A stretch of DNA of 64,000 nt, taken from assembly GCF_000092425.1 (NCBI RefSeq), contig NC_014221.1, forward strand, positions 21,001 to 85,000, given 5' to 3'. The stretch is from Truepera radiovictrix DSM 17093. Its GTDB lineage: Bacteria; Deinococcota; Deinococci; Deinococcales; Trueperaceae. Made by a program: the position numbers and the translations under genes. The notes beneath the pieces are model-generated. The model made no database searches, had not been told where the DNA came from, and saw only the letters and a list, made by a program, of their open reading frames with translations. This document shows positions 9,414 to 12,187 of the stretch, in pieces (position 1 is the first letter of the stretch; the number at the start of each line of letters is the position of its first letter).

Positions 9414-9522
9414 CCCTCTTGGACGGTGCCACGTTGGACACCCCACACCGCAACTCCACGCCCCTCCCGCTCGGGCGCCTCCCTGGCCCGGGGTGTCGGC
9501 GTGCGCTCAAGGGGGGGCGTTA

Positions 9523-10134
9523 GTGGGGGCGGTGCGCGTCAAGATCTGCGGCGTCACCCGCACCGAGGACGCGCTCCTCGCCGAAGCCGCGGGGGCGGAC
9601 GCGGTGGGGTTTATCTTCGCCGAACGCTCCAAGCGCCACGTGACCCTCGAAGCGGCCAGGGAGATGAGCGCGGCCTTGGGACCCTTTATCGCTCGCGTCG
9701 GCGTCTTTGTCGACGCCCCCTTCGAGGAGGTCGTGGCGTGCGTCAGGGCGCTTCGCCTCGACGCCGTGCAGCTGCACGGGGGCGAAGACGCCCCCTATGC
9801 GGCGGCGCTACAGCGGCACGTCCGGGTCGTGCGCGCCGTGGGGTTCTCCCCCGAGCTCGACCCCGCGGCGCTGAGCGGCTACCCCGCCGACGCGCTGCTC
9901 CTCGACGGGCTCACCCCCGGCAGCGGGGAGCGCTTCTCGTGGGCGGCGGCGGCGGCCTTTCGGGGGTGGCCGCGCCTCCTCCTCGCCGGCGGGCTCACCC
10001 CCGACAACGTCGCCGCCGGTATCGCGGCGCTCCGCCCCTACGGGGTCGACGTAGCCTCGGGGGTCGAGCTCCGCCCGGGGGTCAAAGACCCCCGCAAAGT
10101 ACAAGATTTTGTACGCGCCGCGAAGTCGCTTTAA
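9523..10134 (+). CDS. trpF: Phosphoribosylanthranilate isomerase
   Basis: TrpF catalyses the third step of tryptophan synthesis from anthranilate. It is a TIM barrel with VKICGVTR (catalytic Cys), DAVGFIFAERSKRHV, VQLHGGED, LLLDG and LLLAGGLTPDNV, ending GVDVASGVELRPGVKDPRKV. The GTG at 9523 follows AAGGGGGGG at good spacing; GTG at 9532 would also keep the first strand. No other trp gene is adjacent. It is followed by the DnaA-box region. Confidence 0.93.
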   Translation: MGAVRVKICGVTRTEDALLAEAAGADAVGFIFAERSKRHVTLEAAREMSAALGPFIARVGVFVDAPFEEVVACVRALRLDAVQLHGGEDAPYAAALQRHVRVVRAVGFSPELDPAALSGYPADALLLDGLTPGSGERFSWAAAAAFRGWPRLLLAGGLTPDNVAAGIAALRPYGVDVASGVELRPGVKDPRKVQDFVRAAKSL

Positions 10135-10516
10135 GCGGGTGGTGCCTCAACGTTATCCACAGCTTCGCCCGGGGTTGTGGATAACGCGCTTTGCGCCGTG
10201 CAGCACCCCACTTTTCTTCGGTGGTCGGGAGAACGCTCGTGCTGGACGCGCTTTTTGCGGTTTTCGTAAAGCGCGGGCTGCCTAGCAGAACTGTCACCCT
10301 TTTGTCAAGGGCGAAACTTATCCACAGCTCGAGCGGGGTTTATCCACAGCGTTTCGCGTACACTAACCTGCGTACCCTGCGCTAACACCCCAACGCCGTG
10401 CCGAGGAGGTTGAGCGACGAAGTCACAGAGGTGCTCGAGGGTCAGGGGGCGGTCGTGGGCTGACCACCCCCTCGTTGGCGCGTGTGAGGGGCACCTCGTG
10501 ACCACGTCGGTTACCT
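10135..10516. promoter_or_regulatory. Intergenic region with four perfect DnaA boxes
   Basis: No convincing gene. Perfect TTATCCACA boxes lie at 10153-10161, 10318-10326 and 10340-10348, with an inverted one at 10176-10184. The first pair forms an 11-bp inverted repeat (CGTTATCCACA / TGTGGATAACG) with 14 bases between. The last two are direct repeats 22 bases apart, about two helical turns. A small hairpin CCCTT/AAGGG lies near 10298-10312, and a -10-like TACACT at 10359-10364 directly after the last box. This may be a DnaA-titration or DnaA-regulated site, or an origin element. Confidence 0.85.
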
Positions 10517-12187
10517 ATGGACGAACTCAAAAGCAGCCTAACGCTAACGGAACGCCGCGAGGGACCCTTTCACGCCCACCGCAAAGCCTGGAAGGCGCTC
10601 GCTGCCCAGCTCGCCGCCGACCGCGCGCGGCTCGCCGCCGGCGGGGGGGAGGGGGCGGTAGCGCGGCAGCACGCCAAGGGCCGCTTAACGGCGCGCGAGC
10701 GCGTCGCGGCGCTTGTCGACCCCGGTACGCCCTTCGACGAGCTGATGACCTTCGCCGGCGACGGGCTCTATCCAGAAGTCGGCGGTGCGCCCTCTGGTGG
10801 CGTGGTCACGGGGATCGGGCGGGTGGCCGGGCGCAACTGGCTGATCATCGCCAACGACGCGACTGTCAAGGCCGGGGCGTTTTTCCCGATCACCGCCAAA
10901 AAGGTCATCCGGGCGCAGACGATCGCGCTCGAAAACCACCTGCCGGTCATCTACCTGGTCGACTCGGCGGGGGTCTATCTGCCCATGCAAGATGAGATCT
11001 TCCCCGACCAGGACGACTTCGGGAGGGTGTTTTACCTCAACGCGCGCCTCAGCGCCGCCGGCGTGCCGCAGCTCGCAGCGATCATGGGCAACTGCGTGGC
11101 GGGCGGGGCCTACCTGCCGGTCATGTGCGACACGCTGGTGATGACGGAGGGGTCGGGGCTCTACCTGGCAGGTCCGGCGCTCGTCAAAGCGGCGATCGGT
11201 CAGAACGTCTCGAGCGAGGAGCTGGGCGGCGGCCGTCTCCACGCCGAGGTCTCCGGCACCGCCGACTACCTCGAGCGGAGCGACGCGGACGCTCTGCAGC
11301 GCCTGCGGACGCTCGCCGGCAGCTACGCCCCCGCCGCTCAAGCCCCGTGGGCTTTGGGGCGCACTGAGAGCCGCGAGCCGAAGCTGCCGGCAGACGACCT
11401 CTATGGCCTGGTGCCGGCCGACGGCGGCACCGCCCCCTACGATGTCCGCGAGGTCATCGGTCGGCTCGTCGACGCCTCGCAGTTTAGCGAGTACCGGGCG
11501 CGCTACGGCCGCACCATCGTCTGCGGCACCGCGCGGCTCGGCGGTTTCTCGGTCGGCATCGTTGCCAACCAGCGCCTGGTGGTGCGCAACAAGGGGCGGC
11601 TCGAGGTCGGCGGGGTGATCTACGCCGAGGCGGCGGACAAGGCCGCCCGGTTTGTCCTCAACTGCAACCAAGCGGGCATTCCCATCCTCTTTTTGCACGA
11701 CGTCACGGGTTTCATGGTGGGGCGGGAGAGCGAAGCCGAGGGGATCATCCGGCGCGGCGCCAAGCTCGTCAACGCGGTCTCCAACAGCGTCGTGCCGCGC
11801 CTCAGCGTGATCTTGGGGGGCTCTTATGGCGCGGGGCACTACGCGATGTGCGGCAAGGCCTACGGCCCCCGCTTTCTCTACGCGTGGCCCTCGGCGCGCT
11901 ACAGCGTGATGGGGGGGCAGCAGGCGGCCAAGACGATCCTGGACATCCAGGTCGCGCAGCTTAAGCGGCGCGGGGTGACGCCCGACGACGCGGCCCTCGC
12001 GGAGCTCTACGAGCGCATCAAGGCCGACTACGACCGCGCGCTCGACATCCGCTACGCCGCCGCGCGGCTCTGGGTCGACGAGGTGATCTTGCCCTTGGAG
12101 ACCCGCGAACGCCTCATCCGCGCGCTCGAGGTCTGCGCGCTTAACCCGCAGCAAGAGGCGCTCAAGCTAGGGGTGTTTCAGGTCTAG
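10517..12187 (+). CDS. Acyl-CoA carboxylase carboxyltransferase beta subunit (methylcrotonyl-CoA type)
   Basis: Biotin-dependent carboxyltransferase of 556 residues that moves CO2 from biotin to an acyl-CoA. GVVTGIGRVAGRNWLIIANDATVKAG, IYLVDSAGVYLP, FPDQDDFGR and MGNCVAGGAYLPVMCD match the methylcrotonyl-CoA carboxylase beta subfamily better than propionyl-CoA carboxylase. The second crotonase-like domain has GFMVGRESEAEGIIRRGAKLV and GGSYGAGHYAMCGKAY. The biotin carboxylase/carrier subunit is not adjacent. The role would be leucine or branched acyl-CoA breakdown. It lies directly after the DnaA-box region. Confidence 0.9.
   Translation: MDELKSSLTLTERREGPFHAHRKAWKALAAQLAADRARLAAGGGEGAVARQHAKGRLTARERVAALVDPGTPFDELMTFAGDGLYPEVGGAPSGGVVTGIGRVAGRNWLIIANDATVKAGAFFPITAKKVIRAQTIALENHLPVIYLVDSAGVYLPMQDEIFPDQDDFGRVFYLNARLSAAGVPQLAAIMGNCVAGGAYLPVMCDTLVMTEGSGLYLAGPALVKAAIGQNVSSEELGGGRLHAEVSGTADYLERSDADALQRLRTLAGSYAPAAQAPWALGRTESREPKLPADDLYGLVPADGGTAPYDVREVIGRLVDASQFSEYRARYGRTIVCGTARLGGFSVGIVANQRLVVRNKGRLEVGGVIYAEAADKAARFVLNCNQAGIPILFLHDVTGFMVGRESEAEGIIRRGAKLVNAVSNSVVPRLSVILGGSYGAGHYAMCGKAYGPRFLYAWPSARYSVMGGQQAAKTILDIQVAQLKRRGVTPDDAALAELYERIKADYDRALDIRYAAARLWVDEVILPLETRERLIRALEVCALNPQQEALKLGVFQV

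Follow-up and report, generated by a model that had tools for sequence, protein, structure and literature searches.

A conserved cluster of DnaA boxes behind trpF in the Trueperaceae, a candidate DnaA-binding control locus with its own promoter

Introduction

Why should four exact DnaA boxes lie together between trpF and an acyl-CoA carboxylase gene in Truepera radiovictrix, and what would they do there? DnaA is the protein that starts chromosome copying. Among the loci that act on it, datA stimulates hydrolysis of the DnaA-bound ATP, and DARS1 and DARS2 promote release of ADP from DnaA; the core of a DARS consists of three DnaA boxes, and DARS2 also contains Fis and IHF sites. For the cluster behind trpF, an earlier note had left three options, a DnaA titration site comparable to datA, a DnaA-controlled promoter or a second origin-like element, which are weighed here by comparison with related genomes.

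Sequences and searches

The genome of T. radiovictrix (G000) is a single contig (C1) of 3,260,398 bp; the window, i.e. the whole stretch of 64,000 bp that was analysed, corresponds to C1:21001-85000. The sample comprised 39 genomes of the family Trueperaceae. The first search covered the region upstream of the carboxylase gene across these 39 genomes, and the pattern TTGTCAAN{4,24}TTATCCACA was derived from an alignment of the elements found via the carboxylase. The spacing and the TG of the leftward promoter described below were absent from the first search pattern. Pattern-based counts could favour the promoter motif, and the 17 elements found only via the carboxylase serve as a check. The anatomy of G001, G038 and the two elements from a second family was taken from reading the sequences, not from automated geometry. 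Some names in the family gene order are based on sequence similarity only. Relatives of the CRISPR leaders were found by a search with one T. radiovictrix leader.

The trpF-linked site and the genome of T. radiovictrix

Table 1. Coordinates of the trpF-linked site (window numbering) and of related features (C1, T. radiovictrix contig; L, locus)
Feature	Position	Strand	Remarks
trpF (phosphoribosylanthranilate isomerase)	9493..10134	+	Pfam PRAI, 1.7e-46; left neighbour
DnaA box 1	10153-10161	+	TTATCCACA, exact; outer box of inverted pair
DnaA box 2	10176-10184	-	TTATCCACA, exact on minus strand
Palindrome CGTGCTGGACG	10238-10248	.	Consensus CGTCC-N-GGACG; putative site of a DNA-binding protein 'X'
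Leftward extended -10, TGC TAGGCA	10279..10287	-	Hexamer TAGGCA at 10284-10279; TG-n-TA at near-constant spacing in the family
Leftward -35, TTGACA	10308-10303	-	Exact in 16/17 carboxylase-found elements
DnaA box 3	10318-10326	+	Exact; starts 9 bp from minus-strand -35
DnaA box 4	10340-10348	+	Exact; 22 bp after box 3, start to start
TACACT, -10-like	10359-10364	+	Candidate rightward promoter; full consensus promoter not found by scan
Acyl-CoA carboxylase carboxyltransferase subunit	10517..12187	+	Pfam Carboxyl_trans, 1.8e-138; right neighbour
dnaA	C1:493-978		
oriC	C1:1554-1748		Regular, right after dnaA; 9 exact and 3 one-mismatch boxes
T. radiovictrix leader pairs	C1:111995-112052, 471412-471469, 477142-477199, 2407360-2407417, 2587613-2587670		L034-L037
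Meiothermus-like leader loci	L300, L307, L312, L315, L318, L301, L308, L309		
Palindrome in leaders	L306, L304/L309, L319-L322		L319-L322: T. thermophilus pTT27-type plasmids
Palindrome between boxes of oriC loci	L115, L302, L303		

All four exact boxes claimed by the earlier note were recovered (10153-10348). Boxes 1 and 2 form an 11-bp perfect inverted repeat, CGTTATCCACA...TGTGGATAACG, and boxes 3 and 4 are direct repeats, 22 bp start to start; both arrangements had been described, and the exact box positions agree with them. The two groups lie about 142 bp apart. The region had also been called gene-free, and no gene was found between the end of trpF (10134) and the ATG of the carboxylase (10517). 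The claim that the boxes do not cluster by chance was supported by the window, which holds 11 exact and one-mismatch boxes against 1.75 expected, a number reached by none of 100 shuffles.

A genome-wide box count, which the earlier note had proposed, yielded 41 exact boxes against three for a reversed-pattern control: nine in oriC, four at the trpF-linked site, four at a fabH paralogue, 14 in five CRISPR leaders and ten single. The further clusters are thus the four-box one at fabH and five of two to three boxes each in the leaders, and the trpF-linked cluster is, by this distribution, neither oriC nor the sole cluster in the genome. The absence of dnaA from the vicinity, as reported before, did not hold: dnaA and oriC lie 29.4 kb upstream of the cluster, just outside the window. 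In the single-contig relatives G021 and G012, about 0.6 Mb and about 1.9 Mb, respectively, separate the element from dnaA, and nearness to oriC is therefore not conserved.

The fabH cluster (C1:2850308-2850433; L038:5309-5434) has four exact and three one-mismatch boxes before a second fabH-like gene, with several boxes at 11/22-bp phasing. Of the family loci that were read, only the one in G000 has this cluster, and it was rejected as a partner site; family-wide conservation applies to the trpF-linked cluster and not to the one at fabH.

Conservation and geometry in the family

Recognisable boxes occur downstream of trpF in 39 of 39 family genomes, so that a check in relatives, also proposed before, came out in favour of conservation. 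The carboxylase gene is present in 18 genomes, 17 of which carry the cluster in the sampled flank, and was not found in the other 21. Exactly one match each to TTGTCAAN{4,24}TTATCCACA was obtained in 23 of the 39 genomes, including carboxylase-less ones, against one match of the reversed control across all 39. Further family genomes were added by the minus-strand pattern TGTGGANAAN{3,20}TTGACAN{15,19}TA, and the last nine, read downstream of trpF, showed the same element with weaker boxes. The sampled family loci span about 36-75% G+C. In G003 the pattern matched a second time, at a trpF-linked copy on a different contig that probably stems from a second strain in the assembly. The minus-strand matches in G069 and G078, each with one box next to a promoter, were discounted as chance, and the pattern matches in G043 and G045 likewise.

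The outer plus box precedes the minus box by 33 or 23 bp, and an additional, inner box is often present at 13 bp. The counterpart of box 2 shows at most two mismatches across the family, the exception being G001, whose layout is longer and atypical and contains no clear inverted box. The gap from the minus box to box 3 measures 140-145 bp in most genomes (range 130-156 bp). The one or two boxes per genome that follow the gap keep the orientation of the outer box; box 4 usually stands 20-22 bp past box 3 and is absent or degenerate in many genomes. The element of G012 (C1:3892098-3892302 of that genome, L107) has kept boxes and spacing and lost the TTGACA promoter core, and next to box 3 it carries another palindrome-like CGTGCTGGACG. 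Such a naturally occurring variant can help to tell which part of the element matters.

The promoter within the element

On the minus strand, the core across the family reads CTTGACA-N17-TGnTA, i.e. a perfect -35 followed by an extended -10. TTGACA is exact in 16 of the 17 elements found only via the carboxylase and in five of the nine found only via trpF, with a further match elsewhere in G001. Besides G012, a few other family genomes have no recognisable leftward core. A generic promoter scanner misses the leftward promoter because the -10 hexamer is without the final T, which leaves the strength of this promoter uncertain. With its start 9 bp from the -35, box 3 would occupy a place from which an activator, once bound, can make contact with RNA polymerase. 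As expected of a DnaA-regulated promoter, the distance between promoter and box is fixed (TTGACA-N17-TGnTA with box 3 adjacent); a conserved regulated gene was not found, as the right-hand gene varies or is lost and a leftward ORF is absent.

The option of a DnaA-controlled promoter was thus upheld in part: a conserved promoter exists, but on the strand opposite to the one proposed, whereas the TACACT originally pointed out has no recognisable -35, the DnaA box itself aside. Hexamers of the form TANNAT or TANNCT stand near the place of TACACT in many relatives (by eye, with no statistical test).

No terminator was found. A minus-strand small protein was rejected, since a conserved minus-strand ORF was not found in the family elements, and so was a structured small RNA, since the alifold energy in the family alignment was about 0 (the column-shuffle null was degenerate and yielded no z-score). 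With neither ORF nor RNA structure conserved, neither of the two explains the conservation of the element.

The palindrome

The palindrome, with the consensus CGTCC-N-GGACG, stands between the two box groups, in most family members at 53-54 bp from where box 2 ends. Taken alone, its count in the window shows no enrichment (10 against 8.7 expected); the evidence for it is its fixed place across genomes. Covariation in the family alignment was not beyond the between-genome expectation; a hairpin reading was rejected on these grounds, and given the absence of compensatory change the palindrome reads as a putative DNA-binding site. In G025, G026, G030, G035 and G037 a second, usually weaker palindrome was seen by eye about 30-45 bp before the main one.

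Gene neighbourhood

The family gene order is obg - (nadD) - yqeK - lytR - rsfS - (yraN/ppx) - trpF - element - small cupin - (carboxylase) - vWA gene. Synteny places trpF to the left of the element in all family genomes whose contig permits a view, and in most of them the small cupin gene follows directly 3' of the element. T. radiovictrix lacks this cupin gene: no gene was found in 10349-10516, and only a 27%-identical protein was found elsewhere in the genome. A promoter specific to the cupin was rejected, as the element is intact in T. radiovictrix despite the loss of that gene, and one specific to the carboxylase because 21 of the 39 genomes yielded no carboxylase.

Outside the family, two genomes from a second family of the same order contain a similar element beside unrelated genes, one between permease-like and regulator genes and the other in a further context. 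This element consists of an inverted pair 22-23 bp apart, a gap of about 114 bp, TTGACA-N17-TGnTA, box 3 and an inverted box 4. With two cases, the resemblance may reflect homology or convergence. Retention of the element where cupin or carboxylase is missing, together with the unrelated neighbours in the second family, makes it independent of its neighbours.

Interpretation of the locus

Very probably this is neither an accident of sequence nor another origin but a dedicated site, not described before, for replication control or for regulation by DnaA. The neighbours change while boxes, spacing, palindrome and promoter are kept, which makes a dedicated DnaA-binding locus the best explanation; that 10153-10364 is a dedicated chromosomal DnaA-binding control locus with its own promoter is considered to have slightly better than an even chance of being correct. 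From the sequence we infer DnaA binding, looping, an effect on initiation and the direction of this effect at the locus. DnaA would bind both box groups cooperatively across the ~142 bp, probably with the help of bending at the X site. The locus would hold a packet of DnaA and perhaps change its nucleotide state, and the held packet would tune initiation at oriC. DnaA at boxes 3 and 4 would switch the leftward promoter, and leftward transcription running through the X site and boxes 1 and 2 would disturb the DnaA complex. Such an arrangement would be self-timing, of the kind reported for E. coli datA, where read-through transcription lowers IHF binding before initiation (PMC10950094); datA is an apt precedent for this reason.

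By mode of action, not by homology, the element is best read as working like datA/DARS or the DnaA-box clusters of B. subtilis. datA and DARS2 provide precedents (PMC10950094): at datA the site of a second protein lies among the boxes, internal spacing matters and incoming transcription is part of the timing (PMC10950094, PMC4585315). Like datA, the trpF-linked element is a group of DnaA boxes that lies in non-coding DNA away from oriC and, with the palindrome as putative X site, has a second protein's site among them. It differs in the other palindrome that takes the middle and in the promoter that lies inside the element; inspection of the aligned cores by eye turned up nothing resembling an IHF site. 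With DARS1 and DARS2 it has in common a non-coding, single-copy, conserved box arrangement and, comparable to DARS2, a putative accessory-protein site. The B. subtilis clusters outside oriC, likewise groups of consensus boxes, are considered to retain DnaA and to keep initiation in check, a cluster being deleted together with others leading to early initiation. When a cluster is put back it is functional at different sites (PMC5295017), a freedom that fits the variable distance of the element from oriC; they are, however, several clusters per genome, whereas the element is one fixed locus with promoter and palindrome. Titration of DnaA by chromosomal boxes near oriC has recently received experimental support in E. 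coli (PMC12371093).

Several observations count against a control locus. The position of datA and DARS relative to oriC is conserved within E. coli, a single species (PMC4585315), unlike the distance of the element (29 kb, ~0.6 Mb and ~1.9 Mb); the datA-like option of the earlier note is therefore retained as to the way of working (conservation, neighbour independence, fixed spacing) and not as to position. The leftward promoter core is lost in G012 and unrecognisable in a few others, four boxes are few beside the 41 in the genome, and the cupin gene that follows directly in most of the family would suit a regulated promoter of the ordinary kind.

That last possibility, in which boxes 3 and 4 would control the right-hand gene (the cupin, in T. 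radiovictrix the carboxylase) and boxes 1 and 2 would form a repression loop, is regarded as somewhat unlikely and is not exclusive of a control locus. The short distance from the element to the cupin start in most family genomes speaks for it, as does the -10-like hexamer after box 4; like DnaA-regulated promoters in general, the element has boxes beside a sigma-70-type promoter. That promoter, however, faces away from the right-hand gene and reads into the 3' end of trpF, and box 4, which stands beside the rightward -10, is the least conserved box. The element also persists when the gene changes, as in T. radiovictrix without the cupin, in the 21 of 39 genomes where no carboxylase was found and beside the other neighbours of the second family. 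A DnaA-controlled antisense or small RNA would make use of the leftward promoter, with a transcript from ~10272 entering the 3' end of trpF and tuning the operon or acting in trans. The retention of TTGACA and the extended -10 in most of the family is what such an RNA would predict, but the lack of conserved RNA structure, minus-strand ORF and terminator, covariation of the palindrome within the between-genome expectation and the different neighbours in the second family render it improbable.

The remaining explanations fare far worse. A second replication origin or origin remnant could account for clustered DnaA boxes, and the box sequence is indeed shared with the oriC of Trueperaceae and Thermus, which in G025 and two Thermus-like genomes also has a similar palindrome between its DUE-proximal boxes. 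The option is nevertheless highly improbable and fails on several counts: a regular, dnaA-linked oriC with 12 boxes exists, the position relative to it varies, and local GC skew displays no origin-typical turn at the trpF-linked site. The element itself has far fewer boxes, no dnaA/dnaN linkage and no DnaA-trio or AT-rich unwinding region, an AT-rich stretch being absent from the GC-rich family members. A chance cluster or functionless relic is given next to no credence. E. coli datA and DARS can be deleted without loss of viability (PMC4585315), and among the B. subtilis clusters a strong effect appeared only after removal of all six (PMC5295017), so such loci may tolerate loss; chance is strongly contradicted by the retention of boxes, spacing and palindrome in 39 of 39 genomes over the whole range of G+C content.

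CRISPR leaders and a putative partner protein

In each of the five CRISPR leaders of T. radiovictrix, two DnaA boxes form an inverted pair some 60 bp away from the end of the first repeat; a third box accompanies them and has one mismatch in one of the five. Inverted pairs of this kind, TTATCCACA...TGTGGATAA, are found in leaders of three families of Deinococci. G047, from another family, has the same pair in the equivalent position at four leader loci (including L299, L306 and L314), with some one-mismatch boxes. So do three Meiothermus-like genomes at ten loci, of which the majority adjoin an array that can be recognised. The sequence CGTCC-N-GGACG recurs at a constant place in the leaders; it is weak in T. 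radiovictrix and perfect in the leaders of G047 and in Thermus thermophilus plasmid leaders (HB8), the latter without exact DnaA boxes. In oriC, the palindrome of G025 and two Thermus-like genomes reaches p values of about 0.003-0.007 against Markov-shuffled DNA; it is marginal in G021 and not convincing in five others, including G000. The leader and oriC counts are not independent, because leaders within a genome are copies and the lineages are related. A literature search, with most subscription journals outside its scope, found DnaA boxes and CRISPR leaders together in no paper.

IHF acts at type I CRISPR leaders, according to work cited in PMC5382924. The recurrence of the palindrome in leaders and some oriCs hints at an IHF-like partner, i.e. 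a shared DNA-binding protein. Leader boxes and palindrome recurrence are the basis of a further, speculative and rather unlikely proposal, that a protein X of Deinococci (site CGTCC-N-GGACG) plays the part of IHF and, with DnaA, organises oriC, the trpF-linked locus and the CRISPR leaders, tying spacer acquisition or array transcription to DnaA.

Significance

If borne out, the boxes and palindrome in CRISPR leaders would tie adaptive immunity to the initiation of replication, and their recurrence would point to a Deinococci counterpart of IHF. The built-in promoter makes the trpF-linked locus open to testing by RNA-seq and ChIP-seq. Most of what is known in detail about DnaA-control loci outside oriC was learned in E. 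coli and B. subtilis. A single-copy locus of fixed architecture, shared by a whole family in a distant phylum, would be an independent case in which to ask whether titration or nucleotide-switch sites are general.
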